From a virus, in IMG/VR virus record IMGVR_UViG_3300006793_005564, positions 1 through 40,519 of that record: a stretch of DNA of 40,519 bases; one strand, 5' to 3'. Each line of letters starts with the position of its first letter. Within the stretch, counting starts at the first letter, position 1. The notes beneath the pieces were generated by a model. The model was not told where the DNA came from and searched no databases. It saw nothing but the letters and a program-made list of their open reading frames with translations. Of the stretch, positions 19,966 through 35,307 are shown piece after piece. The position numbers were made by a program, and so were the translations under genes.

Positions 19966-19974
19966 TAAAACTTT

Positions 19975-19982
19975 GATAAATA
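19975..19982 (+). promoter_or_regulatory. T4-like late promoter for the 638-aa protein
   Basis: GATAAATA follows a ten-base tandem repeat (TTTGATAAAA/CTTTGATAAA). AAGGAG precedes the ATG at 20004. Confidence 0.7.
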
Positions 19983-20003
19983 GTATTATAAGGAGTAATC
20001 TAA

Positions 20004-21920
20004 ATGGCAGTAAACATTGACGTAGTTGCAGAAAAAGTATTTAATCTACTTGCAGGTAGTGGCTACGAAATCTCAAGCCTAAATTCAGAAGGCGAAAAAG
20101 TAATTGATCCAGTTGAGGCATCAAGATTTGTTGTTAATCAGCCTAATATATTAGTTAGACTAGACAAAGCAACAGAAACATTATCAATGGGTGTAAGAGA
20201 AGATTACGATAATGACACTCTTAGAGACGGGTTAAAACATTTAGCAAACGATTACTTAATGAATTTCGATTTTAGAATATTTGGTAAAGCACTAAGACCT
20301 AAATCCGAAACTATAGATATTGCAAAAAGATCGGAGAAGAAGATGGGCGATGTATTAGAAGCATTAAACGAATTAAGAAAAAGAGCAGGTTTAGAAATAC
20401 ACGAAGGTGAAGTTGGATCAGGATTCCAAGATCCAGAGAAGTCAGGTAAGAAACTAAACGAATTTCAGTTTGACCCAGGCACTATTAAATATGTTGACAG
20501 TTTTATGTCAGATGAACTTCAGCAGTTCAAAAGAAACCGTAATGTAGGCGAAATTATTTTGCCAAACAATATGGATAGGTTCATAGATAATGTCATTAGA
20601 AAAGACAGCCGCCTAAGCAGACAAGAAGCATACCAATTGGTATTAGCATGGATTAAAAACCGTGTTAGAGAATCAGTAGGCGAGAATACTAAGGACGCCT
20701 GCCCAAAGTGTAACGGACTTGGTTGGATACCAGATAGACCAGAAGAGGACTGTCCTGAATGTGGCGGCGAAGATGAAGATGACGGATACTTTGGTGGTAC
20801 TAAGGAATACGAAAGTATGGAAGAGGCCGCAACAAAAACAGTAAACGGTTGTACAGTTTATAGCGACGGTAGTCCACTAAGTTTTGCAGATTGGAGAAAA
20901 GAGGTAGAAATGGAAACAGGTCATCCAATGAGACGTTCAGCAGAAGATCAAAAAATGGATTACAGATCTTACCTTAACAGATGTAACGAAAGTGTATGGG
21001 AGAACATATCCGAAGGATTCAGTTCTATGTCTGGTAGTAGCAAAACAAGTTACCAAGGCTTAGATAATGTCAAACTTATTGTTAGACATAAGAAAGAAGT
21101 TAACGAAGAAGTTAGAGGTTCAAGAAGCAGAAACATCCACAGTATCTTTATACAACGTGGAGACGAAAGATTTAAAATGGCGGAAAACAATTTAAAAGCC
21201 GCTCGTGCAATGGCAAGACATGTTAAAAATGGTGGAGAACCGTTTGACACAGTTGGTAATGCTATTAATGAGATGGCTACAGAGCAGAAGAAACTCAGAG
21301 AGTTTGTTCGTTATGTTAAAAAGTCTGGATTAGTCAACGAAGAAAATGAGACTTATGTAAATATTGCAGTTGAAAATATTAACTCTATTACAAGTGCATT
21401 TACAAAATTAGCAGGTGTTAAGTCATATGCTAATGCAGTTGAACATGTATCAGACAGAGCAACATCTGAAATTATTCAAGATGATATAGATTTAGAAAGT
21501 CAATTCACTGAAACACACTTTGATGATAGAGTCGCTAGTGTGCAAGATTCTATTAAGTCTGCAATGTTTAGAAAAACTCAATTTGAGAGTTCAATAGATA
21601 GAGCAGTAAGTAAAGAATCATTTGCATCACTTAAAAACATGCTTTCAGAAGATGATGGTATGGAATTTGCTACACCTCATGCTAAATTGGGATACCAAGT
21701 TGGCCAGATGAGTAATAGTGTTGCAGATTCGAGATTAGGTTCTTATCTAACAGGTATTAGTAAGAAGCTCTATAGCGGGGACAGGATGTCACAGCACGAA
21801 TACACAACTATTAAGAGTTGTTTGTTAGGTGCCCATGCAGGACACGAAGTACCTACTAGTGTAGCAGAGAGCGTAGAAGATCAGTACGAAAAATTCATAG
21901 AGCAATTTGACATTCTATAA
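20004..21920 (+). CDS. Unknown large protein with a DnaJ-type zinc module, 638 aa
   Basis: I do not recognise a named function. Near residues 235-258 it has CPKCNGLGWIPDRPEEDCPECGG, a pair of C-x2-C-x-G knuckles like the DnaJ cysteine-rich region, so zinc binding is likely. The N-terminal 150 residues are a mixed alpha/beta domain (FVVNQPNILVRL, YLMNFDFRIFGKAL). Residues 340-420 include VKLIVRHKKEVNEEVRGSRSRNIHSIFIQRGDERFKM, a likely basic beta domain. The C-terminal 200 residues are helical. It follows gp17 with its own late promoter and Shine-Dalgarno and ends at a hairpin cluster, so it is probably a virion or head-maturation protein (inference). Confidence 0.8.
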   Translation: MAVNIDVVAEKVFNLLAGSGYEISSLNSEGEKVIDPVEASRFVVNQPNILVRLDKATETLSMGVREDYDNDTLRDGLKHLANDYLMNFDFRIFGKALRPKSETIDIAKRSEKKMGDVLEALNELRKRAGLEIHEGEVGSGFQDPEKSGKKLNEFQFDPGTIKYVDSFMSDELQQFKRNRNVGEIILPNNMDRFIDNVIRKDSRLSRQEAYQLVLAWIKNRVRESVGENTKDACPKCNGLGWIPDRPEEDCPECGGEDEDDGYFGGTKEYESMEEAATKTVNGCTVYSDGSPLSFADWRKEVEMETGHPMRRSAEDQKMDYRSYLNRCNESVWENISEGFSSMSGSSKTSYQGLDNVKLIVRHKKEVNEEVRGSRSRNIHSIFIQRGDERFKMAENNLKAARAMARHVKNGGEPFDTVGNAINEMATEQKKLREFVRYVKKSGLVNEENETYVNIAVENINSITSAFTKLAGVKSYANAVEHVSDRATSEIIQDDIDLESQFTETHFDDRVASVQDSIKSAMFRKTQFESSIDRAVSKESFASLKNMLSEDDGMEFATPHAKLGYQVGQMSNSVADSRLGSYLTGISKKLYSGDRMSQHEYTTIKSCLLGAHAGHEVPTSVAESVEDQYEKFIEQFDIL

Positions 21921-22186: not shown

Positions 22187-23218
22187 ATGGCCTCATTAGC
22201 AGAAATCCGAGCAAAGCTCGCCTCAATGGAAACCAAACCCGGTTCCCAGAAAACACAATCCGATAACGCAATCTTCCCTCATTGGAACATTGACGAAGGT
22301 ACATCAGCAACACTTAGGTTCTTACCTGACAGTAATACTGACAATACTTTCTTTTGGGTTGAACGTCAAATGATTCGTCTAACCTTCCCAGGTGTATTAG
22401 GCGGAGAAAACAAACCAGTTACAGTACAAGTACCTTGTGGTGAAATGTATGGTGATACTTGTCCAGTATTAACTGAGGTTCGTCCTTGGTTTAAAGACGC
22501 AAGTCTTGAAGATATGGGCAGAAAATATTGGAAGAAACGTTCTTATATTTTCCAAGGTTTTGTTGTTGACAGCCCTCTATCAGAGGAAGCACCTGAAAAC
22601 CCAATTAGACGATTTGTAATATCGCCTCAAATCTTTAACATTATTAAGTCCGCTTTGATGGACCCAGATATGGAAAACATTCCAACTGATTATGTTAATG
22701 GATGTGACTTTAGAGTTACTAAAACTACTAAAGGGCAATATGCAGATTACAGTACATCAAACTGGGCTCGTAAAGATAGTGCATTAGATGAAAATCAACT
22801 AGCGGCAATTGACACTAACGGTTTATTTGCATTAAGTGACTACTTGCCAGCACAACCATCCGCTGAACATTACAGAGTAATATCAGAAATGTTTGCGGCA
22901 TCAGTTGACGGTGAATTATATGATCCGAATAAATGGGGTAACTTCTACAAGCCATATGGCGTTGAAGTTCCTGCAACAGCGGTTCAAGATACAAGTGCAT
23001 CAGCTCAAACAACACCAGTTGCTACAGCACCTGCACCTGCACCAGTAACAGCACCTGCACCAGCAGTAGCGGAAACAACAGCACCTGTTGTTGAAACTGC
23101 ACCTGCTCCGGCACCAGTGGCTGAACCAGTAGCAACTGCACCAGCGGCTGATGAAGATAAAGGCAAAAAATCAGCAGATGACATTCTGAATTTGATCCGT
23201 AACAGATCAGCATCGTAA
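22187..23218 (+). CDS. gp32: Single-stranded DNA-binding protein gp32-like
   Basis: gp32 coats single-stranded DNA in replication, recombination and repair. The first residues carry the cooperative region (LAEIRAKLASME). The core includes HWNIDEGTSATLRFLPD, like T4 gp32 NGQAVIRFLPS, then VPCGEMYGDTCPV and YWKKRSYIFQGFVVD. T4 gp32 binds zinc through His64, Cys77, Cys87 and Cys90; only two Cys are present here and the position of the third is Leu, so zinc is probably lost. Residues 270-320 are a Pro/Ala/Val/Thr-rich linker and the tail ends DEDKGKKSADDILNLIRN. At 343 aa it is longer than T4 gp32 (301 aa). AGGAG precedes the ATG, and uvsX follows by nine bases. Confidence 0.88.
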   Translation: MASLAEIRAKLASMETKPGSQKTQSDNAIFPHWNIDEGTSATLRFLPDSNTDNTFFWVERQMIRLTFPGVLGGENKPVTVQVPCGEMYGDTCPVLTEVRPWFKDASLEDMGRKYWKKRSYIFQGFVVDSPLSEEAPENPIRRFVISPQIFNIIKSALMDPDMENIPTDYVNGCDFRVTKTTKGQYADYSTSNWARKDSALDENQLAAIDTNGLFALSDYLPAQPSAEHYRVISEMFAASVDGELYDPNKWGNFYKPYGVEVPATAVQDTSASAQTTPVATAPAPAPVTAPAPAVAETTAPVVETAPAPAPVAEPVATAPAADEDKGKKSADDILNLIRNRSAS

Positions 23219-23227
23219 GGAGTTATC

Positions 23228-24334
23228 ATGCAGAAACCATTTGACTTAACAAAGTTCAGAACGGGTATCACAAAAAGCATCAGTGGTATCAGTGCAGGAT
23301 TCCATGACCCTAAAGATTGGATCAGTACTGGTAACCACACACTCGACTATTTGATTAGTGGAGACTTTGCCGGGGGTGTTCCTCTCGGTAAAGTAACGGT
23401 GTTTGCAGGTGAGTCCGGCTCTGGTAAATCATTTATTTGTTCTGGTAACATTGTAAGGAACGCACAAAAGCAAGGATGTCAAGTTGTATTATTTGACTCA
23501 GAAAATGCGTTAGACGAGCAATGGCTACAAGCATTAGATGTAGAAACAACACCAGATAAACTATTGAAAATTAGTGTAAGCATGATTGATGACGTTGCAA
23601 AAGCAATATCAGAGTTCATGAAAGACTATAAAGCAAACTACGGTGATTTAGAGTATGATGACATGCCTAAGTTATTGTTTGTTATTGATAGTTTGGGTAT
23701 GTTGTTAACACCTACTGATGTTACACAATTTGAAAAAGGTGATATGAAAGGTGATATGGGTAGAAAGCCAAAGGCATTAGCGTCTTTAGTTAGAAACACC
23801 GTAAACCAAATAGCACCATATCCAATTGGAATAGTAGCAACAAACCACACATACGCATCGCAAGACATGTTTGACCCTGATGATAAAATCAGTGGAGGAC
23901 AAGGTTTTATATATGCGTCAAGTATTGTAGTAGCAATTAAAAAACTTAAACTCAAAGAAGATGAGGACGGTAATAAAGTTAGTACAGTACAAGGTATAAG
24001 AGCCGCTTGTAAAGTAGTGAAATCGAGATACAGCAAACCTTTTGAAGGTGTGCAGATTAAGATTCCATATGAAACAGGAATGGACCCTTATAGTGGTATG
24101 GTAGAGATGCTTGAAGCAAAAGGCATCATTACAAAAACTGGTAACAAACTATCTTATGTATCGCCTGTAACTGGCGAAGAAATTAAGGAGTTCAGAAAAC
24201 AGTGGACTGATGAACGTCTTCAGGTAATTATAGACGAGTGGGATCAAAATCCTATTGCACAGAAAGAAGCAATAGAAGATATTGATCCTGATGATCTTGA
24301 ACCAACTGAAGAGGAATATACAGATGAGTCCTGA
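23228..24334 (+). CDS. uvsX: UvsX RecA-like recombinase
   Basis: UvsX forms filaments on single-stranded DNA and drives strand exchange and recombination-dependent replication. Walker A is GESGSGKS (residues 61-68). VVLFDSENALDEQWL follows with the catalytic Glu, then LLFVIDSLGML (Walker B), GRKPKALASLVRN and GIVATNHTY, the order of the RecA core. The length, 368 aa, is near T4 UvsX (391 aa). AAGGAG precedes the ATG. Its stop lies inside the next gene, and a UvsY candidate follows, the usual cluster. Confidence 0.95.
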   Translation: MQKPFDLTKFRTGITKSISGISAGFHDPKDWISTGNHTLDYLISGDFAGGVPLGKVTVFAGESGSGKSFICSGNIVRNAQKQGCQVVLFDSENALDEQWLQALDVETTPDKLLKISVSMIDDVAKAISEFMKDYKANYGDLEYDDMPKLLFVIDSLGMLLTPTDVTQFEKGDMKGDMGRKPKALASLVRNTVNQIAPYPIGIVATNHTYASQDMFDPDDKISGGQGFIYASSIVVAIKKLKLKEDEDGNKVSTVQGIRAACKVVKSRYSKPFEGVQIKIPYETGMDPYSGMVEMLEAKGIITKTGNKLSYVSPVTGEEIKEFRKQWTDERLQVIIDEWDQNPIAQKEAIEDIDPDDLEPTEEEYTDES

Positions 24335-24563
24335 AGTAGCATTACTGCATGAAGTATGGGATTCGGTAAGAACCCATATTGCAGTTAAGGAACGTTTACC
24401 TGAAGCAGAACGATTACTAAGGATGTTCGAAGAGCACATCGACATGTCAGATATTGAGGAAAATGCTCATGAATTTGACAAGGTTATGAAAGCCGCAATA
24501 ATTACTCATTATGACGAAGGCTTTGATGAAGATGCAGACGAAGACGAATATTCGGAGTATTAA
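24324..24563 (+). CDS. Unknown small acidic protein between uvsX and uvsY, 79 aa
   Basis: The start at 24324 (MSPEVALLHEVWD) overlaps the uvsX end and has GAGG nine bases upstream; an upstream in-frame start at 24282 lacks one. The protein is helical with EVWDSVRTHIAVKERLPEAERLLRMFEEH and ends in an acidic tail (DEGFDEDADEDEYSEY). No named family is recognised. Position and overlap suggest a recombination accessory factor. Confidence 0.7.
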   Translation: MSPEVALLHEVWDSVRTHIAVKERLPEAERLLRMFEEHIDMSDIEENAHEFDKVMKAAIITHYDEGFDEDADEDEYSEY

Positions 24564-24565
24564 AA

Positions 24566-25027
24566 ATGAGTACCTGGTATAATAAAGTTGTTGGAGATTT
24601 AGGTACTATTGTAGACAGTATTACTTACTTTGAAAATGAACTACAAGAGGCCAGGTTCGAGTGTAGGATAAAAGGGAGTCTGGAAAAAGCCAGTTCTTCC
24701 CTTCCTGGTTTAACAGAGTATCGTTTTAATCAACTACAAGAGATTGAAGCGATACTCGAACACTTGAATATTGAACTTCGCAAAGTTCGTTCAGTTACAT
24801 TTCGCAAATACTTAGAAGCATATAACAGACAACTAAGCAGTAGAGATGCTGAAAAGTTTGTTGATAGCGAACAAGATGTAATTGACCTTACACACCTTAC
24901 TAACCAATTCAGCCTTTTACGAAATCAATACTTAGGTATTATGAAAGGACTTGATACTAAGCAGTGGCAAATAGGTCACATTACAAGACTGCGAACAGCA
25001 GGAATGGAAGACATAGTAATCGAGTAA
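24566..25027 (+). CDS. uvsY: Probable UvsY recombination mediator
   Basis: UvsY loads UvsX onto gp32-coated single-stranded DNA. The 153-aa protein is helical throughout. Its C-terminal third, DAEKFVDSEQDVIDLTHLTNQFSLLRNQYLGIMKGLDTKQWQIGHITRLRTAG, follows the order of T4 UvsY (ADKDVLKVDTSLQYWGILLD, then IKSRGFAIKHIQDMRAF). The length fits (T4 137 aa). The location directly downstream of uvsX, with one small gene between, supports the call. Sequence identity is low, so this rests on pattern plus position. Confidence 0.65.
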   Translation: MSTWYNKVVGDLGTIVDSITYFENELQEARFECRIKGSLEKASSSLPGLTEYRFNQLQEIEAILEHLNIELRKVRSVTFRKYLEAYNRQLSSRDAEKFVDSEQDVIDLTHLTNQFSLLRNQYLGIMKGLDTKQWQIGHITRLRTAGMEDIVIE

Positions 25028-25030
25028 TTT

Positions 25031-25411
25031 ATGATATATGGTGTTGGTACTGATATTTTAGATAATAATAGACTTAGCGATTACGAAAAAAGCACTAAGT
25101 TAGCATTCAAGATACTCAGTACTACAGAACTTAACATTTACCAAGAATTAACAAAATCCCAAGCAATTAAGTACTTAGCCAAGCAATTTACCTGCAAAGA
25201 AGCAGTTTCTAAGGCATTTGGCACAGGTATTAGGGGCGATGTAGTAATGTCAAATATGGAAATATTGAGGGATAATCAAGGTAAACCATACCTAAATCCT
25301 CTTGGAAAACTCCAGGATTATATGGATTCTATGGGTATAACTGCCGCACATTGTTCCATATCTGACACAAATTTGCATACTATTGCCGTCTGTGTATTAG
25401 AAAACGGTTGA
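25031..25411 (+). CDS. acpS: Holo-[acyl-carrier-protein] synthase (AcpS-like phosphopantetheinyl transferase)
   Basis: AcpS moves 4'-phosphopantetheine from CoA to a serine of acyl carrier protein, activating it for fatty-acid synthesis. The full signature is present: GVGTDI with metal-binding Asp8, RILTTTEL-like segment (KILSTTELNIYQ), KQFTCKEAVSKAFGTGI with metal-binding Glu57, and NMEILRDNQGKPYL, ending HCSISDTNLHTIAVCVLE. The length, 126 aa, equals bacterial AcpS. No ACP gene is seen in the window. It follows uvsY by three bases, so it is co-transcribed with the recombination genes. Its TGA stop lies inside the -35 box of the next promoter. Confidence 0.88.
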   Translation: MIYGVGTDILDNNRLSDYEKSTKLAFKILSTTELNIYQELTKSQAIKYLAKQFTCKEAVSKAFGTGIRGDVVMSNMEILRDNQGKPYLNPLGKLQDYMDSMGITAAHCSISDTNLHTIAVCVLENG

Positions 25412-25435
25412 CAAATACCAAATACTTGCTATAAT
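25408..25435 (+). promoter_or_regulatory. Sigma70-type promoter P1 upstream of the AAA+ gene
   Basis: TTGACA and TATAAT are separated by 16 bases, preceded by AAAACGG and with TTGC before the -10 box. The acpS stop codon overlaps the -35 box. Its transcript has a leader of about 110 bases. Confidence 0.8.
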
Positions 25436-25487
25436 AGTGGCATAGTTAGGAAGTTAACAAAGACTTTTAACTAGTTCAACTAAACGG

Positions 25488-25515
25488 TTGACAAGTTAGT
25501 AATTGATGTTATACT
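25488..25515 (+). promoter_or_regulatory. Sigma70-type promoter P2 upstream of the AAA+ gene
   Basis: TTGACA and TATACT are separated by 16 bases, again after AAACGG. It is the second of two promoters in tandem, 80 bases apart. GGGAGG precedes the ATG at 25553. Confidence 0.8.
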
Positions 25516-25552
25516 ATACTAGTAAGTTAAATTATTGCTGTGGGAGGCAAAT

Positions 25553-26581
25553 ATGACAAACACAAACCAAGTAAAAATATTCCAAGGTACATACAGAAAT
25601 GCTCCAATTACGGATACTGTATTTCCTTTGGTGAAGCCAATACAATATGGCAAAAAAGGCATGTTCATTACTGTAGATGCCAGTAAGGTATTAGATCCAT
25701 CTAAAAAAGCAATTCGAGTATTGATCGAATCTGAAAAAGATGTTTCATATGTACCGGTAGAAGATCAAGTCGTTGAGGAAGTTGTTGCTGAAACAACTGA
25801 AACAGACGAAGAAGCACTTGATCGTATTGCAAAAAGATTTGAAATCTTAGACCAAATGACTGATGCTGTAGCAAACGGTGTTGTTAGAGGACTTATTGTA
25901 AGTGGCCCTCCAGGAGTTGGTAAAAGTTTTGGTGTTGAAAAAGTGTTAGAAGAATATGACATGATGACAAAGTTGTCTAACCAAGCACCAAGGACTGAAA
26001 TTGTTAAAGGTTCAATGACACCAATAGGTTTATTCCAAACATTATATAATAACTCGGCGGCAGGTAACATCTTAGTATTTGATGACTGTGACTCTGTGTT
26101 GTTTGATGAAGTATGTTTGAATATGCTTAAGGCTGTTTTGGACTCAGGCAAGAAAAGAACTATTAGTTGGAAATCAGAATCTGTCGCTTTGCGAAGAGAA
26201 GGTATTCCAGATAGGTTTGAGTTCAAAGGTGGTTGTATCTTTATTACTAACGTTGACTTTGAAAACGTTCGTTCTAAGAAGATCAAAGATCACTTAGCGG
26301 CTCTTATGTCCAGATGTCATTATATCGACCTAGAGATGGGTAGTGTTAATGATAGGTTTTTGAGAATTAACCAGATCGTTAGGGATGGTATGCTAGAAGA
26401 ATACAACTTTGGAGAAGATGGAAACAAAGAAGTTGTAGAATTTATGGTAGACAAAGCGACTAGGTTAAGAGAAATTTCATTAAGGATGGTCCTTAAAGTT
26501 GCAGACTTAAAGCAAATGTCTCCGGACACTTGGAAGGATCTTGCAGAGACCACCTGTATGAAAAGACTAACAGATTTTTAG
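25553..26581 (+). CDS. AAA+ ATPase of unknown role
   Basis: The AAA+ core has Walker A GPPGVGKS (residues 118-125), Walker B ILVFDDCD (173-180) with Asp-Asp, a sensor-1-like CIFITNVDF, and a possible arginine finger in LMSRCHY. Residues 1-100 are a separate N-terminal domain of beta character followed by an acidic linker (VEEVVAETTETDEE). The length is 342 aa. It is not gp44 (no clamp-loader SRC motif or zinc region) and not gp41 (wrong fold), so it may be a remodelling ATPase. The start is the ATG at 25553 with GGGAGG; an upstream TTG at 25535 overlaps the Shine-Dalgarno. Two tandem promoters suggest strong early need. Confidence 0.85.
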   Translation: MTNTNQVKIFQGTYRNAPITDTVFPLVKPIQYGKKGMFITVDASKVLDPSKKAIRVLIESEKDVSYVPVEDQVVEEVVAETTETDEEALDRIAKRFEILDQMTDAVANGVVRGLIVSGPPGVGKSFGVEKVLEEYDMMTKLSNQAPRTEIVKGSMTPIGLFQTLYNNSAAGNILVFDDCDSVLFDEVCLNMLKAVLDSGKKRTISWKSESVALRREGIPDRFEFKGGCIFITNVDFENVRSKKIKDHLAALMSRCHYIDLEMGSVNDRFLRINQIVRDGMLEEYNFGEDGNKEVVEFMVDKATRLREISLRMVLKVADLKQMSPDTWKDLAETTCMKRLTDF

Positions 26582-26610
26582 TTCTCCCACACTAAAACTT
26601 TTAGTCGACT

Positions 26611-26643
26611 GGAGCACTAGCAATTATGCTAGTGTTCCTTTTA
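26611..26643 (+). terminator. Strong hairpin/terminator between the AAA+ and TonB-receptor genes
   Basis: The 12-base arms GGAGCACTAGCA and TGCTAGTGTTCC (one G-U pair) flank a four-base loop and are followed by TTTT. I see no convincing promoter between it and the receptor ATG at 26672, so it may act as an attenuator. Confidence 0.8.
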
Positions 26644-26671
26644 TTATATTAACTTTAACTAAAGAGGTAAA

Positions 26672-28246
26672 ATGAAAGTAAGTAAAATGTTGGTAGCACT
26701 AGGTCTTCTGAGTGTGATATTGATTCCAACAAATCTGATAGCAGAAGAAATAGAAGAAGTAATAGTTGTTGGGGCAACTGTTCAAGAAACAGATACTGAC
26801 GCAACACAAGAAGTATCTTTAATAGAAGTACTAATGCCAGCTCAGCCTGATATCCCAGGTGGATATGGTGGGTTTGCAGGATACAACGAAAGAGGTGCTC
26901 AAACAGTACATTCTACAATTTATGTAAATGGTGTACCATCAAACGATTCTGGATCTGGCTGGTATGACTTTGCTCATGACTTAGCAACTGGTTCTGAAAA
27001 AGTAAAAGTAGTAACCGCACCAAACGGTGTTGCTTACGGCTCTGGTTCTTTAGGCGGTGCTGTTTTTATAACAGACTCATTTGAAACAGGTGCTACTGTA
27101 AGGTACGGCGATGAACACGAGTTTGTTAACTTACAATATGGTGAGGAAGACCTCGGGTTCAGTTTAACATCATTTGATGTTAACAATGGTAGTGTTAGGA
27201 CAGATAACGAAGAAGATGACTACTACAATAATGTTTCTGCAAAAGCAATGTTTGATGCAGGTTTGTTAGATGTTGTAGTTACTTATTCAGACTATGAATA
27301 TGATTATGATAATTGTTATACTGCTAGTTTTACTCAGAGTAACGATTGTTTACAAGCAGGTACAAGAGGTACAATAAGTGCTAGGAATGATAATGTAACA
27401 ATTGGTTATACATTCAATGATTCCGAATACTTTACAGAAGGTGTTGCAGGCACACTAAATGAATCAAGTAGATTGTATATCGATACAAGAAGGTCTAAGA
27501 CATTTGGTAAAGCAACTATAACATATGGTTCAACATTAGATCAAGAACAATACAACGAGTACGAGCAAAACAACTCGAGTGCATACTTGTTATCTAACTT
27601 TGGTGCATTTGATATTGGTATTAGAGCGTCAAGTGATGCAACTGTAGTTAGAGCAGGTTTTGAAAAGAATGGTTGGTCAGGTAGTATTGGTAGTAGTTTT
27701 AGGAATCCTGGTCTTTATCAGTTGTATGGTGACTCGTGGGTCCAAGCAAACTCTACATTACTTCCTGAAGAAGCAGTAGGTGGAGAGATTGGATATTACG
27801 GTATTACTGTATTTAGATATAACTTTAGTGAAGGTATCGACTATGATTCACAGAGCTATATGTACATGAACACAGGTAGTTATGCTACTGAAGGTGTAAG
27901 GTATAATAACACGTTTGCTATTCCTTATGGTGGATTAGACATAATGATCGGCTATACAAATAGTGATCAGCCTAGAATACCTGAATGGAAAAGTGCCATC
28001 AATGCATTTTTTACTGTAGGTAACTGGCGTTATACATTTACTCATTCTACTATGCTAGACAGAGAACCAAGTTTATACGATACATCACTTGACAATATTC
28101 AGGCACTTGACTTTAATGTTTCAAGAACATTTGGTCGTTTTAATTTAGCAATGCATGTACAAGATGTATTTGATGATGAGTACGAAGTTTTACCAGGATA
28201 TGGTGCCGGTGGCAGAAGTTTTGTATTGACAGTAATCTACAAATAG
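26672..28246 (+). CDS. Phage-encoded TonB-dependent outer-membrane receptor (BtuB-like)
   Basis: TonB-dependent receptors import scarce ligands such as cobalamin, iron complexes or sugars. Residues 1-24 are a signal peptide ending LIA. EEIEEVIVVGAT (25-36) is a TonB-box-like start. The plug (45-135) includes NERGAQTVHSTIYVNGVPSND and APNGVAYGSGSLGGAVFITD, classic plug strands. The rest is beta-barrel with many alternating aromatic/polar strands. The C-terminus VQDVFDDEYEVLPGYGAGGRSFVLTVIYK matches the BtuB-type end, although the last residue is Lys, not Phe. At 524 aa it is shorter than E. coli BtuB (614 with signal), but frame and both termini are intact. Two Cys near residues 216-228 may make a loop disulfide. 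AGAGG precedes the ATG. The ligand is unknown. Confidence 0.87.
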   Translation: MKVSKMLVALGLLSVILIPTNLIAEEIEEVIVVGATVQETDTDATQEVSLIEVLMPAQPDIPGGYGGFAGYNERGAQTVHSTIYVNGVPSNDSGSGWYDFAHDLATGSEKVKVVTAPNGVAYGSGSLGGAVFITDSFETGATVRYGDEHEFVNLQYGEEDLGFSLTSFDVNNGSVRTDNEEDDYYNNVSAKAMFDAGLLDVVVTYSDYEYDYDNCYTASFTQSNDCLQAGTRGTISARNDNVTIGYTFNDSEYFTEGVAGTLNESSRLYIDTRRSKTFGKATITYGSTLDQEQYNEYEQNNSSAYLLSNFGAFDIGIRASSDATVVRAGFEKNGWSGSIGSSFRNPGLYQLYGDSWVQANSTLLPEEAVGGEIGYYGITVFRYNFSEGIDYDSQSYMYMNTGSYATEGVRYNNTFAIPYGGLDIMIGYTNSDQPRIPEWKSAINAFFTVGNWRYTFTHSTMLDREPSLYDTSLDNIQALDFNVSRTFGRFNLAMHVQDVFDDEYEVLPGYGAGGRSFVLTVIYK

Positions 28247-28254
28247 TGTATAAT
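28226..28254 (+). promoter_or_regulatory. Perfect consensus sigma70 promoter at the uvsW start
   Basis: TTGACA (28226-28231), 17 bases, TATAAT (28249-28254). The -35 box lies in the last codons of the TonB receptor and the uvsW ATG at 28261 falls at the expected +1, so the mRNA may be leaderless. Confidence 0.85.
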
Positions 28255-28260
28255 TAACTT

Positions 28261-29718
28261 ATGGCAAATGTAACTCTAGAAATAAAAGACGAAGTAAACG
28301 TTAGGTTCGTAGGACTTGACGTTAAGACTAGACGTAAAATTTCTGAAGAAACAAAATACTTTTTACCTTACGCATATCATATGCCGGCTTACAAGTTGGG
28401 TCGATGGGATGGTTGTGTAAGGTTCTGTGACATTGGCGGCAGGACTTACATGAATTTGTTAGATCGCTTGTTGCCAATAGTTACTAAAGAGGGCTATAAT
28501 GTTGATGTAGTAGACCATAGACAGAGTTGGAGTTTTGATTTCCAACATGTTGAATCAACTAGTTATGATAGTGTAAGTTGGCCTCCTAAACATCCAGCGG
28601 CTGGCTTACCTATTATACTTCGAGATTATCAAGTAGAAGTTATTAATCGTTTCCTTGATAATCCTCAATGCTTACAGCAAGTAGCCACAGGTGCAGGTAA
28701 AACACTTATTACAGCAGTATTAAGTCACAAGTGCCAGGACTTTGGTAGAACTATAGTTATTGTACCTAATAAAGATTTAGTAGTACAGACAGAAAAAGAT
28801 TATAAGAATTTAGGTTTAGATGTTGGTGTATTATTTGGCGATAGAAAAGACTATGATAAAACACACACAATTTGCACATGGCAAAGTTTAGCAGTACTAG
28901 AAAAGAAAACAAAGGCGGGAGAAGCCGAAGTAGACCTAGATGTATTTTTAGACAATGTTGTCTGCATTATGGTAGACGAAGTACACAAAGCAAAAGCAGA
29001 TGTACTCAGAGACCAATTAAGTGGTATGTTTAAGAATGTTCCTATACGTTGGGGACTAACAGGAACAATACCCAAAGACGACCATGAAGCAGTTGCATGT
29101 ACCTGTGCATTAGGACCTGTAATAGGTAGCCTAAGTAGTAAAGAACTACAAGAAATGGGTGTATTGGCTGACTTGGATATTAGCATATTACAAATGAAGG
29201 ATGCTCCGGCAGGCTTTAATAGTTATGCCCAAGAATTAAAATGGCTTACAACAGACGAGACACGGCTACAGCACATTTCAAGTGTTATAGCTCAGTTATC
29301 TAAGAGTGGTAACACCCTGGTATTAATTGATAGAATTAGAACAGGTGAAATATTCACTGAACAAAATCCAGACTGGGTTTTTGTAAGTGGCGGAATGAAA
29401 GTGAAGGATAGGCAAACCGAGTACGATGAGATATCGGAAATGAACAACAAAGTCATTGTTGCAACATACGGTGTAGCCGCAGTAGGAATTAACATACCTA
29501 GAATATTTAATCTAGTAATGTTAGAACCAGGAAAAAGTTTTGTTCGTGTTATACAGAGTATCGGTAGAGGTATTCGTAAAGCAGAGGACAAAGATTATGT
29601 TAATGTGGTTGACATCACAAGTGATTTAAAGTATAGTAAAAGACATTTAACAAAAAGAAAAGTCTTCTATAAAGAACAGGGCTTTAGGCACACAATTACA
29701 AAGGTGGAATATAAATGA
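28261..29718 (+). CDS. uvsW: UvsW-like DNA/RNA helicase (superfamily 2)
   Basis: T4 UvsW unwinds R-loops, Holliday junctions and stalled forks and shifts replication to the recombination mode. The N-terminal domain (1-110) with AYKLGRWDGCVRFCD resembles T4 FRYGNWDGRIRLLD. The helicase core has VATGAGKTLITA (motif I, 142-148), VDEVHK (motif II, DEVH 239-242), GLTGTIPK (motif III), VIVATYGVAAVGINI (motif V) and VIQSIGRGIRK (motif VI). The length, 485 aa, is close to T4 (503 aa). It opens an operon of eight genes in which every junction overlaps. Confidence 0.93.
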   Translation: MANVTLEIKDEVNVRFVGLDVKTRRKISEETKYFLPYAYHMPAYKLGRWDGCVRFCDIGGRTYMNLLDRLLPIVTKEGYNVDVVDHRQSWSFDFQHVESTSYDSVSWPPKHPAAGLPIILRDYQVEVINRFLDNPQCLQQVATGAGKTLITAVLSHKCQDFGRTIVIVPNKDLVVQTEKDYKNLGLDVGVLFGDRKDYDKTHTICTWQSLAVLEKKTKAGEAEVDLDVFLDNVVCIMVDEVHKAKADVLRDQLSGMFKNVPIRWGLTGTIPKDDHEAVACTCALGPVIGSLSSKELQEMGVLADLDISILQMKDAPAGFNSYAQELKWLTTDETRLQHISSVIAQLSKSGNTLVLIDRIRTGEIFTEQNPDWVFVSGGMKVKDRQTEYDEISEMNNKVIVATYGVAAVGINIPRIFNLVMLEPGKSFVRVIQSIGRGIRKAEDKDYVNVVDITSDLKYSKRHLTKRKVFYKEQGFRHTITKVEYK

Positions 29719-30212
29719 AAATATTAACAGTAGAAGACGTACCATACGAACTTGATACAGTACCGGAGCAGATTGACGATTTAAGATATTGTGCTCTTGA
29801 TGCCTCGGATAAAGAGTGGGTAGACTTCTTCTTTTTACCATTGATCTTTTTGGAGAGTTTTTATGCTCCTGCAATTTGTTTGCAGATAGGTGAACATAAG
29901 GTCCAAATGCCAATGGATTGGAGCATACTATTATGCGACGAGGATATGGGAGGAGTTGAAACTATCCCATTAGCAAGTTTAAATAATAGGGGATTTAGAG
30001 CATTGTCAATGAATCCAATGAGTAACAGAATACCTGATAGTTTAGATGTAACAATAACCAACATATATCAAGACGTAAAATGGTTCTTTCCTAAACTTAA
30101 ACATGGACATCTTTTAGCAGTACCTCTAGAAGATAAGAAAAGTCCTAAGTGTGTATTCTTTGTTAAAGAATTAAATAAGGTACAAGACTTTGATATAGGA
30201 GATTTAATTTAA
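29715..30212 (+). CDS. Unknown conserved-looking protein, 165 aa
   Basis: I do not recognise a named function. It reads as a compact soluble domain: WVDFFFLPLIFLESFYAPAICLQIGEHKVQMPMDWSILL in the first half, then ETIPLASLNNRGFRAL, and DVKWFFPKLKHGHLLAVPLEDKKSPKCVFFVKE at the end. The hydrophobic segment near residue 40 is broken by charges, so it is not an obvious membrane helix. The start overlaps uvsW (ATGA) and the stop overlaps metK (TAATG), so it is co-translated with both. Confidence 0.75.
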   Translation: MKILTVEDVPYELDTVPEQIDDLRYCALDASDKEWVDFFFLPLIFLESFYAPAICLQIGEHKVQMPMDWSILLCDEDMGGVETIPLASLNNRGFRALSMNPMSNRIPDSLDVTITNIYQDVKWFFPKLKHGHLLAVPLEDKKSPKCVFFVKELNKVQDFDIGDLI

Positions 30213-31309
30213 TGTATGAATTTACTAGTGAGAGTGTCAGCAGAGGACACCCAGACAAAGTAGCAGATGCTATTAGCGATGCTGTAGCAACATATCTTAT
30301 TGATGGTAATACTAATCATAGAGCGGCAGTTGAAACACTTGTAACAACTAATATGGTTACTCTTGCAGGAGAATATAAAAGCGACAAGTTTAGCAAAGAT
30401 GTAATTGCACAAATTGTTAGAGATACTGTAAAAAAGATTGGTTACGAACAAGACGGTTTTCATTGGAAACATTTAAAAATATATAACGAGTTACATGGTC
30501 AGTCGCCTGACATTGCAATGGGGACAGATGATTTTGGTGCAGGTGACCAAGGACTTATGTTTGGGTATGCATGTGATGAAACTCCTAATTATATGCCAAG
30601 TGCAATTTACTACAGTCATAAGATTCTCCAAGCATTAGATGATGCTAGGGCGGCCGGTGATGGTGATTGGTTAGGCCCGGATAGTAAAGCACAAGTTACT
30701 TTTAATTATGATAGTGTAGGAAAACCAACAGGCATTAAAACTATTGTATGTAGTACACAACATAGTGATGATGTAAGTACACAAATGGTTAGAGATAATG
30801 TTGAAACTATTATTAGAGAATGTGTTGGTAGCGATTACAACCTGTCAGAGACAGAATTTTTAATTAACCCAACAGGCAGATTTGTAATTGGAGGACCAGA
30901 TGGAGATAGCGGTGTTACTGGAAGAAAAATTATTGTGGATACTTATGGCGGGTATGCTCCACATGGTGGGGGTGCATTTAGCGGTAAGGACTGTACTAAA
31001 GTCGACCGCTCAGCCGCATATATGGCTCGCTACTTGGCAAAGAACATTGTAGCAACAGGCAAGGCAAAAAATGCCACGGTACAATTAAGTTACGCAATTG
31101 GTGTTAAACAACCAACTAGTGTATATGTATATGCAGACGGAGAAGTAAGAAAAGAGTTTGCAGACTACTTTATGGACAATATAGATCTTACTCCAAAAGG
31201 TATTATTGATAGGTTTAAACTATTTGATATAGATTTGACAACTACTACAAACTATGGACACTTTGGTAAAGAAGAAATGCCATGGGAAAAGGTAGAGTTA
31301 AAACTATGA
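30212..31309 (+). CDS. metK: S-adenosylmethionine synthetase (MetK-like)
   Basis: MetK makes SAM from methionine and ATP. The hallmark motifs are all present: GHPDK (residues 12-16) near the start, GAGDQGLMFGYA (109-120; the methionine-site loop), GGPDGDSGVTGRKIIVDTYGG, and GGGAFSGKDCTKVDRSAAY with the phosphate-binding loop. At 365 aa it is slightly shorter than E. coli MetK (384 aa), but no motif is missing. The first codon overlaps the preceding stop (TAATG). It is followed, with overlaps, by apt and a MTA/SAH nucleosidase, so all three are probably co-expressed. Early expression is likely from the promoter at 28226. Confidence 0.95.
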   Translation: MYEFTSESVSRGHPDKVADAISDAVATYLIDGNTNHRAAVETLVTTNMVTLAGEYKSDKFSKDVIAQIVRDTVKKIGYEQDGFHWKHLKIYNELHGQSPDIAMGTDDFGAGDQGLMFGYACDETPNYMPSAIYYSHKILQALDDARAAGDGDWLGPDSKAQVTFNYDSVGKPTGIKTIVCSTQHSDDVSTQMVRDNVETIIRECVGSDYNLSETEFLINPTGRFVIGGPDGDSGVTGRKIIVDTYGGYAPHGGGAFSGKDCTKVDRSAAYMARYLAKNIVATGKAKNATVQLSYAIGVKQPTSVYVYADGEVRKEFADYFMDNIDLTPKGIIDRFKLFDIDLTTTTNYGHFGKEEMPWEKVELKL

Positions 31310-31866
31310 GCATCAGCACAGTAAACATAGATTTAAAAAACCATATTAGAACAGTATCCGGATTTCCTAAAGCAGGTATTGAATTTAGAGACATAACAAG
31401 TTTATTAGAAAATCCAAAAGCATTTAACAAATCACTAATGGATTTAACTGGACTTGCAATGAGTTTTGGTGCTGATAAAATTGTTGGTATCGAAAGCAGA
31501 GGTTTTGTATTCGGGGCACCGCTTGCCAGAGACTTAGAAGTGCCTTTTGTAATGGCAAGAAAGCCAGGCAAGTTACCCGGACAATGTTACACCCAAAGTT
31601 ACGACCTAGAATATGGTAGTGCAAGTTTAAGTATACAATGTAACACATCAGTACTAAGCACTGACAAAGTTATAATCATAGATGACTTAATTGCTACAGG
31701 CGGAACAGCAATAGCCTGTGCTGATATATTATACAATGCATTTGATGTTGCTAAAGAAAATATTTTAGTTTTAGCACTAATAGACTTGCCCGATCTGGGA
31801 GGAAGTGCTATAATACAAGAACAAGGTTACAATGTAAAGACATTGATTGAATTTGAAGGCGAGTAA
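31306..31866 (+). CDS. apt: Adenine phosphoribosyltransferase (Apt-like)
   Basis: Apt converts adenine and PRPP to AMP and pyrophosphate. From the ATG at 31306, which overlaps the metK stop as ATGA, the protein has 186 aa, near the E. coli size (183). The N-terminus KNHIRTVSGFPKAGIEFRDI is the Apt hood. KIVGIESRGFVFGAPLA (59-75) is the base-binding region, MARKPGKLPG follows, and VIIIDDLIATGGT (122-134) is the PRPP loop. An upstream GTG-type start at 31282 would lie inside metK and adds nothing recognisable. The neighbouring nucleosidase would release adenine, its substrate. Confidence 0.95.
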   Translation: MSISTVNIDLKNHIRTVSGFPKAGIEFRDITSLLENPKAFNKSLMDLTGLAMSFGADKIVGIESRGFVFGAPLARDLEVPFVMARKPGKLPGQCYTQSYDLEYGSASLSIQCNTSVLSTDKVIIIDDLIATGGTAIACADILYNAFDVAKENILVLALIDLPDLGGSAIIQEQGYNVKTLIEFEGE

Positions 31867-32444
31867 TGAAAAATATTATTATTATGGCACTAGAGGCCGA
31901 AGCACCAAACATGGCAGAGTGGGAAAATGTATTTTTTACTGGTGTTGGTAAAGTTAATGCGGCAATCACAACTGCTAAGTTATTAGAACGTTATCCAGAT
32001 GTAGAAAATGTTTTTAACTTTGGAACAGCAGGTGGCATAGCACCTAACCTTTCAGGCATACACAAGATGGGCAATTTTGTACAACGTGATATGTTGTGCT
32101 GTCCGTTTGGAGTACCAGAAGGCCAAACACCATTTGAAAGTTACACAAAGTTAACATTTGATTATGAAGCACTGACATGTAGTACAGGTGATAACTTTGT
32201 TACAGATAGCAATTTATCTATTCCAGCAGATGTTGTTGATATGGAAGCCTATGCAATAGCAAAAGCAGTATTAGTTGCAGATTGTGAACGAGGTGATACA
32301 GACGAAGCAGACTTTATAAAGTTTCATTGTTATAAATATATCAGTGACGAAGCAGACGAAAGTTCAAAAGACGATTGGCAGAATAATGTTGCAGACGGTG
32401 AAGAACATTACATTAAAATTTATAAGGAAATAGTTAATGGCTAA
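31866..32444 (+). CDS. mtnN: Methylthioadenosine/S-adenosylhomocysteine nucleosidase (MtnN-like)
   Basis: This family hydrolyses methylthioadenosine, S-adenosylhomocysteine or 5'-deoxyadenosine to adenine plus the ribosyl product. The three catalytic residues of E. coli MtnN (Glu12, Glu174, Asp197) have counterparts: the Glu pair in MALEAE (10/12), Glu127 in VVDMEAYAIAKA, and Asp161 in YISDEAD. TGVGKVNAA (25-33), NFGTAGGI (51-58) and STGDNFV also match. The length is 192 aa against 232 in E. coli; the middle is shortened. The start overlaps the apt stop (TAATG). It completes a SAM to adenine to AMP salvage route. A general purine nucleosidase is the alternative; the motif set favours MTA/SAH. 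Confidence 0.87.
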   Translation: MKNIIIMALEAEAPNMAEWENVFFTGVGKVNAAITTAKLLERYPDVENVFNFGTAGGIAPNLSGIHKMGNFVQRDMLCCPFGVPEGQTPFESYTKLTFDYEALTCSTGDNFVTDSNLSIPADVVDMEAYAIAKAVLVADCERGDTDEADFIKFHCYKYISDEADESSKDDWQNNVADGEEHYIKIYKEIVNG

Positions 32445-32907
32445 AAAGGCACCAGTACTACCATTAAAAGAAGTAATGGCGGCTTTGGACAAAAAGGATA
32501 AAGGTTGGTATAACAGACTAACACCTGAAAAAAGAAAAGCATTTAGCACATGGATGATGATGCGTTATGCTAGTAGTGTGCAAGGTCGTAATGCGGCTAA
32601 CTTTTTGTTTATGGTTAATGAGTTAGTTAACAAAGACTTTGAAGATATTTACAAGCACCCAGAATTACAATGGTTACTAATGAGTGCATGTGGTACAGGT
32701 AAGATTGAATTTCATCCATACATTAAGCCACCAAATAGTAGAAAGAAAAAAGATAAAGTAAGCGAGTTTATTCTAAGCATCTATCCACATCTTAAGAGCG
32801 ATGAGCTAGAACTAATGCTAAGTATAAACAGCAAAGACGATTTAAAAGAGTTTGCAAAAGCACATGGATACGATGACAAAACAATCAAAGACATCTTCGG
32901 TAAGTGA
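32437..32907 (+). CDS. Unknown replication-operon protein, possibly clamp-loader small subunit gp62-like
   Basis: The 156-aa helical protein contains GWYNRLTPEKRKAFSTWMMM, ANFLFMVNELVNKDFEDIYKHPELQWLL, and a basic stretch IKPPNSRKKKDK followed by two short helices. The order of a central helix with a MN/VNEL segment, a GK-x-H patch and a C-terminal helical end loosely recalls gp62 of T4-like phages, but similarity is weak and gp44 is not in the window, so I keep it as a possibility. It overlaps the nucleosidase gene by eight bases and the following zinc-finger gene by 35. Confidence 0.65.
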   Translation: MAKKAPVLPLKEVMAALDKKDKGWYNRLTPEKRKAFSTWMMMRYASSVQGRNAANFLFMVNELVNKDFEDIYKHPELQWLLMSACGTGKIEFHPYIKPPNSRKKKDKVSEFILSIYPHLKSDELELMLSINSKDDLKEFAKAHGYDDKTIKDIFGK

Positions 32908-33577
32908 TCCACAATGCAAGTGGTGTGGCAAGACATTTAAGTCTGAGAGAACTCTTGCTGTCCATATGTGCGTTAGAAAAAGACGCTGGGCAGACAAAGA
33001 TTTAACTCATATTAGATTAGGCTACAGAGTATTTCAGTTGTTTTATGAACTCAATACTTCTGCTACTAAAAGTAAAAGCATGGAAGACTTTATTCGTAGT
33101 CAATACTATGAAGGCTTTACTAAGTTTGGTAGAAGTTGTGTATTGAATGAATACTTACAGCCTGAAAAATTTGCAGAGTGGTTAATTAAAGAAGGTAAAA
33201 AACTAGCAGACTGGAGCAAAGATTCTGTATATGATGAATTCTTATTACAGTATGTTAAAAAGGAACCAGGGCTAAAAGCATTAGAAAGGAATGTAGTGTA
33301 TTTGTCTGAATGGGGACAAGAACATAAATGTGATTGGCAAGATTATTTTAAGTTAGTTAGCACCGCAAGAGCAGTTCATGATTTGCGTAGTGCAAAAATC
33401 TCGCCTTGGTTACTTTATCTAAGTGAAACAGGCGATACATTGTTAACAAGGCTAAGCACAGAACAAATAGGAATGGTAGATCACATAATTGAAGCAAAGT
33501 TTTGGTTAAGTGTATTTGCAAAAAACCCAGAAGAAGTAGAACGTATTCAATCAACATGTAAGGAAGCAGGTATATAA
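32873..33577 (+). CDS. Unknown protein with N-terminal C2HC-type zinc finger
   Basis: Near the N-terminus is CKWCGKTFKSERTLAVHMC, a C-x2-C-x12-H-x-C finger, so zinc-mediated nucleic-acid or protein binding is likely. The remaining 200 residues are helical, with Trp/Tyr/Leu-rich segments (LGYRVFQLFYELNTS, FAEWLIKEGKKLADWS, LRSAKISPWLLYLSETG) and no known motif. The start is uncertain: ATG at 32873 or 32864, or TTG at 32852; all lie inside the preceding gene. The stop overlaps thyX (TAATG). A regulator or replication accessory role is inferred from the finger and operon only. Confidence 0.7.
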   Translation: MTKQSKTSSVSDPQCKWCGKTFKSERTLAVHMCVRKRRWADKDLTHIRLGYRVFQLFYELNTSATKSKSMEDFIRSQYYEGFTKFGRSCVLNEYLQPEKFAEWLIKEGKKLADWSKDSVYDEFLLQYVKKEPGLKALERNVVYLSEWGQEHKCDWQDYFKLVSTARAVHDLRSAKISPWLLYLSETGDTLLTRLSTEQIGMVDHIIEAKFWLSVFAKNPEEVERIQSTCKEAGI

Positions 33578-34251
33578 TGAAAGTAAAACTAATTAGTCAC
33601 TCACAAGCACCAGATTACAATGAGTCAGCATTAGACTTAGTGGCCTATTGTGCCAGAGTAAGTAATCCAGATAATCAAAACAACAAAGAAACAAGTGAAA
33701 AACTTGTTAAGTATTTGATGAAGCATAAGCATTGGTCACCACTTGAGATGGTATCAGCATGTTTAGAAATTGAAACAACCAGAGACATAGCAAGACAACT
33801 GTTACGTCATAGAAGTTTTAGTTTCCAGGAGTTTAGTCAACGTTATGCAGATCCAACAAAAGATTTGGAGTTTGAAATTCGCCAAGCAAGATTACAAGAT
33901 CCTAAAAACAGACAGAATAGTGTACCGCTGGATCCAGAGATGGACGGCCATGCTGTATTACAAGGCACTTGGAAAAACAAGCAACAACGGGTCATAGATG
34001 CCGCCTTAGACGCTTATAACTTCGCTGTAAGCAACGGTATTGCCAAAGAGCAGGCCAGAGTAGTACTTCCTGAAGGAAACACGTTAAGTAGGTTGTATGT
34101 AAACGGTACATTGCGTAGTTGGATACATTATATAGAATTGCGTGGTGCTAACGGAACACAATTAGAGCATATAGAACTTGCTCATGCTGTAGCAGATGTT
34201 ATTGCTAAAATATTCCCTATTGCAGAAGAATATAAAGAAAAAAATATCTAA
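33577..34251 (+). CDS. thyX: Flavin-dependent thymidylate synthase ThyX
   Basis: ThyX methylates dUMP to dTMP using methylenetetrahydrofolate and reduced FAD, leaving tetrahydrofolate rather than dihydrofolate. The signature R-H-R-x7-S is present as RHRSFSFQEFS (residues 77-87). KHWSPLEMVSACLEIE precedes it, and the C-terminal RVVLPEGNTLSRLYVNGTLRSWIHYIELR carries the substrate-binding Arg. The length, 224 aa, is typical. It is the last gene of the uvsW operon. Its TAA stop overlaps the TAG stop of the convergent minus-strand gene within CTAA (34248-34251). Confidence 0.95.
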   Translation: MKVKLISHSQAPDYNESALDLVAYCARVSNPDNQNNKETSEKLVKYLMKHKHWSPLEMVSACLEIETTRDIARQLLRHRSFSFQEFSQRYADPTKDLEFEIRQARLQDPKNRQNSVPLDPEMDGHAVLQGTWKNKQQRVIDAALDAYNFAVSNGIAKEQARVVLPEGNTLSRLYVNGTLRSWIHYIELRGANGTQLEHIELAHAVADVIAKIFPIAEEYKEKNI

Positions 34252-34949
34252 CCCGGAGCATCTCTGTGTGCTACACCATCTTTATTTGTTCTATCTAAGG
34301 CATTATCGTCATGCACCATTAATCCTTCGAACAGGAAGTCATAGTAGTATCCGTTTATATTAGATCTGCTCCACACAATATCATCTACTAACATATCTTG
34401 AAAATGTATTCCTGTGTTTCTTGTACCTGATTGCACATGCACCGGAATACTGTAACATAACTGTGGTGCTGTGAAAACTCTATACCCAGCATCTATTAAT
34501 CTAACCATTCCTACTGGTCTAAAATGTGAACATGCTCCCCAACTTCCGCCACCAACTATAATTGTACCACCAGGTGGCACAAATTGGCTCACATCTTCGA
34601 GTTCGCACTCAGCATACATTTTTTTACGTGGATTGCATAGATAGTGTTTGTAATGCATTGGTGTAAATTCTTTGTCTTGATCTTCGCCTGTTAAAATTTT
34701 ATCCTTATCAAAAGTAGGAGCATCTGAAGTTCTATAAGTAGCACTAATCAGTGTATCAAACTTAAAATTTTGTAGGAAACCGTGACATTTTTCTTGGTAT
34801 ACGGTTTGATAATCCAGCCATTCATCATAAGAGTACTTAGCAAATGCATTGGGACCATCTGCCGCTTTGATAATCGAAACCATTGAAAATGGGCTCCATA
34901 TGTCTATCAATATCACTGCATCTACGTGGATTTGTGGCTTTTTATTCAT
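34248..34949 (-). CDS. Possible isochorismatase-like cysteine hydrolase, late-type promoter
   Basis: The pattern of an N-terminal DAVILIDIW strand with Asp, and a later GGTIIVGGGSWGACSHFRPVGMVRLIDAGYRVFTAP, resembles the isochorismatase-like fold: a strand, a glycine turn, a Cys at the start of a helix, then a G-Y-x-V strand. The catalytic Lys is not clear, so activity is uncertain. The protein has 233 aa with no signal peptide. It is the only minus-strand gene in the right part of the window. The late-type GATAAGTA lies five bases before its ATG, so it is probably expressed late, against the direction of the early thyX operon. Confidence 0.6.
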   Translation of the reverse strand: MNKKPQIHVDAVILIDIWSPFSMVSIIKAADGPNAFAKYSYDEWLDYQTVYQEKCHGFLQNFKFDTLISATYRTSDAPTFDKDKILTGEDQDKEFTPMHYKHYLCNPRKKMYAECELEDVSQFVPPGGTIIVGGGSWGACSHFRPVGMVRLIDAGYRVFTAPQLCYSIPVHVQSGTRNTGIHFQDMLVDDIVWSRSNINGYYYDFLFEGLMVHDDNALDRTNKDGVAHRDAPG

Positions 34950-34954
34950 ACTAT

Positions 34955-34962
34955 TACTTATC
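34955..34962 (-). promoter_or_regulatory. Late-type promoter variant for the 233-aa minus-strand gene
   Basis: On the minus strand GATAAGTA ends five bases before the ATG at 34949, the same spacing as four other late genes. It faces away from the early promoter that starts 16 bases further on. Confidence 0.6.
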
Positions 34963-34977
34963 TTTTTCTAAAAACGG

Positions 34978-35005: not shown

Positions 35006-35040
35006 AGTTGAACATTAAGCAAAAACAGGTAGGAGTGTAT

Positions 35041-35298: not shown

Positions 35299-35307
35299 GG
35301 AACCCAA

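Follow-up and report, generated by a model that had tools for sequence, protein, structure and literature searches.

A virus-only family of BtuB-like TonB-dependent receptors among the repair genes of large phages: candidate importers of cobalamin

The 40,519-base IMG/VR virus record IMGVR_UViG_3300006793_005564, analyzed here as a whole and called the window below, carries myovirus structural genes (sheath, tube, and terminase) on one side and, on the other, a recombination and nucleotide block with gp32, UvsX, an AAA+ ATPase, UvsW, MetK, ThyX, a ligase, and GlyA. The two sides separate cleanly by promoter class. The T4-like late motif KATAAATA stands upstream of 8 of 17 structural genes (positions 4819-20004) and of 0 of 18 others (22187-39222), and the pattern is reversed for sigma70 sites matching at least 11 of 12 consensus positions, which precede 0 of 17 structural and 8 of 18 non-structural genes. 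The recombination block also includes a gene for a 4'-phosphopantetheinyl transferase (ACPS; positions 25031-25411, E = 7.3e-14), unexpected for a phage, and a 488-aa protein with FG-GAP repeats, possibly an adhesin or a virion surface protein, is encoded at positions 35308-36774 of the window. The first-pass annotation had placed a TonB-dependent receptor (TBDR) in the recombination region between an AAA+ ATPase and uvsW. Both flanks were confirmed, the upstream gene belonging to phrog_1250 and the downstream one encoding a UvsW-type helicase (Table 1), and the receptor itself is borne out by a Plug match, a 22-strand model, and BtuB as the nearest structure.

The receptor ORF starts with ATG, has no internal stop, and fills exactly the interval given in Table 1. 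The Pfam domain Plug (PF07715) was found on residues 38-130 (E = 5.8e-8; 33.6 bits against a gathering cut-off of 23.9), and it also scores above the cut-off in 11 of 11 viral records tested. The sole NCBIfam match is the B12 receptor model TIGR01779 (BtuB), aligned over residues 62-524 (E = 2.5e-10); its score of 39.5 bits lies far under the equivalog cut-off of 599.7, and for this reason we describe the viral receptor as BtuB-like and do not file it as BtuB. An AlphaFold2 model built from an alignment of 29 viral rows (pLDDT 79.8, pTM 0.80) has the topology of TonB receptors, a plug and then 22 strands that are joined by turns of 2-4 residues on the periplasmic side and by loops of 2-21 residues on the outer side. 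The model of a distant member with 38% identity (L035) likewise has a plug and 22 strands, plus a small hairpin in loop L3. From sequence and model together, the ORF is predicted to encode a complete, loop-trimmed TonB-dependent receptor. The earlier description of the protein as near full-length needs adjustment to this extent: it seems rather to be complete, with trimmed loops, at about 500 mature residues by eye compared with 594 in mature BtuB. The signal-peptide-like N-terminus is the least conserved part of the family; in the TonB-box-like segment, E29 and V32 are present in 52 of 53 dereplicated viral rows. The terminal lysine noted earlier is real, but the suggestion that it alters BAM-dependent assembly is unsupported: in the 29-row alignment the relatives end freely in Lys, Arg, Gln, Trp, or Tyr, and therefore we give this residue no functional meaning.

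Table 1. Features of the receptor locus in the window (aa, amino acids; AF2, AlphaFold2)
Feature	Position	Strand	Basis
Sigma70-like early promoter of the AAA+ gene	25488..25515	+	11/12 consensus positions
Upstream AAA+ ATPase gene (phrog_1250)	25550..26581	+	
AAA+ terminator hairpin, 33 nt upstream of the TBDR start	26611..26638	+	
TonB-dependent receptor (TBDR) gene, 524 aa	26672..28246	+	ORF, Pfam Plug, AF2 22-strand barrel, Foldseek BtuB
Signal-peptide-like N-terminus, residues 1-24	26672..26743	+	By eye: basic n-region, hydrophobic core, Ala before EEIEE
TonB-box-like segment EEVIVVGA, residues 28-35	26753..26776	+	TonB-box reading by eye
Predicted plug domain, residues 36-139	26777..27088	+	Pfam Plug 38-130 and predicted model
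Second plug apex, residues 87-105, motif GxGWYDFAHD	26930..26986	+	Conservation; aligns with BtuB plug apex
Predicted 22-strand beta-barrel, residues 140-524	27089..28243	+	Strand count on AF2 model
Extracellular loop L2, acidic motif DNEEDD, residues 178-183	27203..27220	+	Row conservation, BtuB alignment
Extracellular loop L3, YEYDYDNC...C, residues 208-226	27293..27349	+	Row conservation, BtuB alignment
Sigma70-like uvsW promoter, overlapping the TBDR 3' end	28226..28254	+	12/12 consensus positions
Downstream UvsW-type helicase	28261..29718	+	

Among solved structures, BtuB is by far the nearest to the viral receptor, by sequence profile as well as by predicted fold. The profile of the viral family matches BtuB in the PDB with E = 1.4e-21 (80 bits), the next non-BtuB chain reaching 4.5e-5 (26 bits); such an alignment profile was required, as the PDB search with the window protein as a single sequence gave chance matches only. 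Comparison of a predicted structure with BtuB, a check proposed by the first-pass annotation, recovered both plug and barrel and ranked BtuB first: the best 11 PDB matches of the model in Foldseek are all E. coli BtuB (top E = 3.6e-22, TM 0.78/0.70). The small size of BtuB may itself favor it in structure matches. Profile-profile alignment against 13 cellular BtuBs extends over 500 columns (probability 99.9, E = 1.2e-34, 20% identity). With BtuB, the gammaproteobacterial TonB-dependent B12 transporter described by TIGR01779, the viral receptor shares the plug and 22-strand barrel, a full-length profile alignment, and the C-terminal region. It differs in being virus-encoded, only about 20-24% identical, about 90 residues shorter, free of a cobalamin riboswitch, and placed outside the cellular BtuBs, and in having an invariant cysteine pair in L3 and the GxGWYDFAHD plug motif.

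Conservation within the viral family is concentrated at the second plug apex and in loops L2, L3, and L7. The apex is the most conserved segment of the receptor, with a mean top-residue frequency of 0.81 and 9 of 19 positions at 0.98 or higher; the corresponding means are 0.79 for L3, 0.78 for L9, and 0.72 for L7, and are as low as 0.45 for the periplasmic turns. Three residues of L2 (D178, E181, and D183) and seven of L3 (Y208, Y210, D211, Y212, D213, C215, and C226) are present in 53 of 53 dereplicated rows, and the invariant cysteines C215 and C226 likely form a disulfide. The acidic residues on the ligand side align with the calcium cage of BtuB: E181 with D193, D183 with D195, and Y212-D213 with Y229-D230. 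D193, D195, and D230 are members of this cage in BtuB. As to the remaining proposed cage positions, D169 is Asp in 33 of 53 rows, and D225 is Asp in 47 of 53 with an ambiguous alignment. In BtuB the cage of five aspartates lies beside the B12 site, Y229 and D230 are listed as B12 contacts, and the affinity for B12 drops 1000-fold at low calcium (PMC7360065). A conserved ligand side combined with weakly conserved periplasmic turns is what a transporter of one fixed ligand would show, and not a blocker under attack.

Further evidence on the ligand comes from the regulation of cellular relatives. When 369 gammaproteobacterial genomes were searched with the viral profile at E = 1e-15, only three places passed, all of them remote relatives. 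These three proteins, chosen by the viral profile alone, are all encoded directly behind a cobalamin riboswitch (3/3), as are the tested BtuB-type loci. For control, 20 other TBDRs of the same class were drawn by the Plug domain without regard to B12; one of them (L232) has a cobalamin riboswitch upstream, that of L220 being on the other strand, and the chance of three riboswitches in three under this mixture is 4/1771, or about 0.002. This set replaced a first control set (L175-L194) with cobalamin riboswitches in 7 of 20 cases, which was biased because it had been drawn with the BtuB model. As a separate observation, L180, L184, L188, and L193 represent a second group of cellular receptors with cobalamin riboswitches and with no match to the viral profile, perhaps another class of B12 receptors. 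At the viral gene, the Rfam scan found neither a cobalamin riboswitch nor any other Rfam element, and riboswitch control of this gene was therefore rejected. Altogether, the profile kinship, the riboswitch-linked kin, the aligned acidic residues, and the conservation of the ligand side make cobalamin or a related corrinoid the best guess for the ligand; because of the long stem of the viral clade, the ligand may have changed.

Relatives of the receptor were confirmed in 237 IMG/VR stretches after viral contigs had been scanned with the family alignment. Two of them are 100% copies of the window gene with the same flanks in other contigs, and the same receptor gene between the same flanks recurs in contigs of many IMG/VR datasets. 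A single Plug gene is present in each of 11 longer records, the largest of which spans 340 kb, so at least part of the receptor-carrying group has jumbo-size genomes. The closest cultured UvsW proteins (48-54% identity) come from jumbo phages of Pseudomonas, Sinorhizobium, Agrobacterium, and enterobacteria, and the annotations of Paride and Phosso show no receptor of this kind beside UvsW. The INPHARED phage collection contains the receptor in no record apart from two Salmonella chromosome contigs filed there as phage (AGRM01000004.1 and AFYI01000005.1), which carry a true btuB and would give a false "phage BtuB". On the cellular side, the genomes of 84,980 prokaryote species were scanned with two patterns of the family, which detect only proteins keeping those motifs, and gave 110 matches, none of them a relative; the viral clade is thus not cellular, but a scan limited in this way does not show that no TonB receptor resembles the viral ones. 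None of 385 alphaproteobacterial genomes matches the viral profile at 1e-15. A cellular scan for the phage GlyA, aimed at inferring the host, gave scattered and often metagenome-assembled phyla and yielded no host call.

The place of the gene is largely fixed. In 83 of 105 loci, the window included, the receptor is the immediate upstream neighbor of UvsW and follows the AAA+ gene, either directly or with one inserted ORF in between, and in 13 more one flank is missing at a contig end. Among the 105 loci two other contexts occur, of the L031/L034/L045 type and of the L099/L104 type. The most divergent receptor group (L031, L032, L034-L036, L041, and L045) has a different genomic context, with the receptor of L031 and L032 located, by eye, downstream of an SbcCD/gp46-47-like pair, which indicates additional movement of the gene from one phage lineage to another. 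In L099 and L104 the receptor gene, beside structural genes, follows an MTA/SAH-nucleosidase-like gene, a further link to SAM recycling. In one lineage (L052, positions 2512-3621, and 36 further loci), cluster c9, a conserved protein of about 370 aa that matches neither Pfam nor NCBIfam, is encoded between the AAA+ gene and the receptor, nearly abutting the latter.

To avoid favoring receptor carriers, contigs were also searched by UvsW alone. Of the 80 nearest ones, 60 have the receptor upstream, 18 have the AAA+ gene directly before UvsW, and 2 are cut at the edge (60/78 informative). In all 18 empty sites, about 101-115 bases long, the AAA+ gene is followed by an intrinsic terminator and this in turn by a sigma70-like UvsW promoter, the promoter-like sites of receptor-less loci scoring 10-12 out of 12. 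Of 55 distinct upstream regions, 52 contain a hairpin equivalent to the AAA+ terminator, and the other three are shortened by start calling. Since the empty sites keep both signals, the receptor is an insert between two older ones; the possibility that the hairpin is a receptor-specific attenuator was rejected, given that loci lacking the receptor have this terminator behind the AAA+ gene as well. The receptor gene has neither a T4-like late motif upstream, on which ground late expression was rejected, nor its own sigma70 site with at least 11 of 12 consensus positions. With both promoter classes lacking, the simplest reading is that transcripts of the early AAA+ unit would pass the terminator and extend into the receptor gene, an unrecognized type of promoter being possible.

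The first-pass annotation had also called for a phylogeny against host receptors. In a quick tree with 54 cellular receptors, 35 dereplicated viral proteins group separately from these in a single clade (SH-aLRT 100), and this clade branches outside the cellular BtuBs and not within them; its stem amounts to 1.6 changes per column by a method that flagged long branches. The receptor is under purifying selection, with dN/dS of 0.10-0.23 over 11 pairs (dS being saturated in some) and mostly lower values for UvsW and AAA+. Its distances correlate with the UvsW distances (r = 0.59) and with the AAA+ distances (r = 0.63), neither value being reached in any of 2000 shuffles, compared with 0.97 between UvsW and AAA+, which points to long co-inheritance with faster change or some exchange. 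Judged from these sequences, the receptor gene is old in the viruses that carry it and has been kept functional. Recent capture from a host was rejected, as the two-pattern scan of 84,980 species gave no cellular relative; it is also contradicted by the remoteness of the kin in the 369 gammaproteobacterial genomes and by the single viral clade.

Near the receptor, the window has metK, an MTA/SAH-nucleosidase-like gene, thyX, and glyA. These are genes of the SAM and one-carbon cycle, where a B12-dependent methionine synthase of the host would act. Proteins with B12-binding and radical-SAM domains are encoded in 6 of 16 receptor-carrying records searched (among them L119 61-1908, L121 1375-3228, L122 1-2184, and L123 1405-2907) and are not universal, the absence of a gene meaning little because the records are incomplete; for the L119 protein, no INPHARED phage relative was found at E 1e-20. 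Phage NrdA belongs to the B12-independent class I in two records scanned, and NrdB is adjacent in the lineage of the window. A demand for B12 through a phage class II ribonucleotide reductase (RNR) was rejected for the records examined, both scanned NrdA types being class I. The SAM-cycle and radical-SAM genes are hints of B12 demand, not proof.

In the mechanism that we propose, transcription running past the AAA+ terminator would yield the receptor early in infection, Sec would export it, and BAM would fold it into the outer membrane of the host. Cobalamin or a related corrinoid would be bound there by its plug and extracellular loops, probably together with calcium; host TonB-ExbBD would then open the plug, and periplasmic and inner-membrane proteins of the host would complete the import. 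The likely benefit would be that, while virus is being produced, enzymes of the host or the phage are less limited by B12, the users being the host methionine synthase, which would feed the phage SAM genes, or the phage B12-binding radical-SAM proteins. The function that we judge most likely, with a probability of about 0.55, is TonB-driven uptake of cobalamin or a similar corrinoid by infected cells. Import of a limiting nutrient such as cobalamin or iron was among the roles first suggested for this gene, and this role, above all for cobalamin, gains support from the riboswitch-linked kin, the conserved ligand-side residues, the TonB-box-like segment, and the purifying selection.

Many TonB receptors carry iron compounds, and an importer of siderophores or heme, which could supply, for example, the phage's own di-iron class Ia RNR in iron-poor water, is an unlikely though serious alternative. 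It would fit the assignment of NrdA, and of NrdB in the one family-scanned pair, to class Ia, as well as weak matches of the viral profile to heme and colicin I receptors. However, in the profile search every iron receptor scores more than 50 bits below BtuB, and all tested nearest cellular kin are found behind cobalamin, not iron, regulation. In two-His heme receptors a barrel histidine pairs with a plug histidine, whereas the viral family has no invariant barrel histidine to form such a pair. Less probable still is a superinfection or receptor-swap device that occupies the outer membrane or the host TonB, thereby blocking phages or colicins that depend on BtuB-like receptors. Conservation is highest on the plug apex and loops that face the ligand, which is unexpected for a mere blocker, even though the very short extracellular loops (2-21 residues) would suit a receptor offering little to bind and the TonB-box-like segment is retained. 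The gene also sits among early genes without a late promoter, where exclusion could still act early. The decoy and receptor-swap roles suggested by the first-pass annotation, though conceivable, have found no positive support.

A non-transport role in the outer membrane or the virion, such as virion shedding or envelope damage, is improbable: the protein has the full architecture of a TonB receptor and a conserved ligand side, and its gene lacks the late promoter that precedes 8/17 structural genes. The remaining alternative, a host fragment joined to the viral contig by assembly error, had been raised at the outset and is refuted by the recurrence of the gene with fixed flanks across many IMG/VR datasets (83/105 loci, and 60/78 informative nearest UvsW loci). 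In agreement with this, the two patterns used found no relatives in 84,980 species genomes, and composition is unchanged across both junctions of the receptor gene, so that we regard the chance of such an error as negligible. As to the broader picture, in which these receptors are a virus-only, long-established clade of energized cobalamin transporters and lytic jumbo-type phages install a near-core B12 importer early in infection, we consider the odds to be even.

A TonB receptor encoded by a phage has precedent; the new part is a clade that is BtuB-like, virus-only, and near-core. The marine megaphage Mar_Mega_1 encodes a SusC-type TonB-dependent receptor, proposed to help carbohydrate uptake (PMC9723777), which is the sole clear phage-encoded TonB receptor found in the literature searched and has in common with the viral receptor that a large phage encodes it. 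The phage SusC protein A0A8D9FQQ5, which we infer from the shared name to be that of Mar_Mega_1, belongs to another TBDR class: it has 805 aa and 11% identity with the window receptor (TM 0.61/0.42). The Foldseek match to this protein is far weaker than that to BtuB, and no SusD-like gene was found among the annotated neighbors of the viral receptor genes. In the tail region of the pelagiphage Skadi-1 there is a "TonB-dependent receptor" annotation, which its authors took as a pointer to the host receptor (PMC10504331); only the annotation name is shared with the window receptor. TonB is not mentioned in a study of marine jumbo phages (PMC9123017). On phage-encoded BtuB, the literature searched contained nothing relevant, an earlier mention in subscription papers or preprints being possible. 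Phage T5 has a small lipoprotein, Llp, that blocks the TonB receptor FhuA; both are phage genes at work on TonB receptors, but Llp blocks a receptor, whereas the window protein is one.

TonB-dependent receptors are known as entry ports of phages. With a phage that makes such a receptor itself, the question shifts from how the phage enters to what it brings in. The location of the gene at a fixed place among the repair genes of large uncultured phages suggests a nutrient importer that is built into infected cells. Vitamin B12 is exchanged between marine microbes and is often scarce, and a virus directing its uptake would couple infection to vitamin traffic. Finally, the receptor family is large, its members are small, and their ligand side is strongly conserved; it would also serve transport studies as a minimal BtuB-like scaffold.
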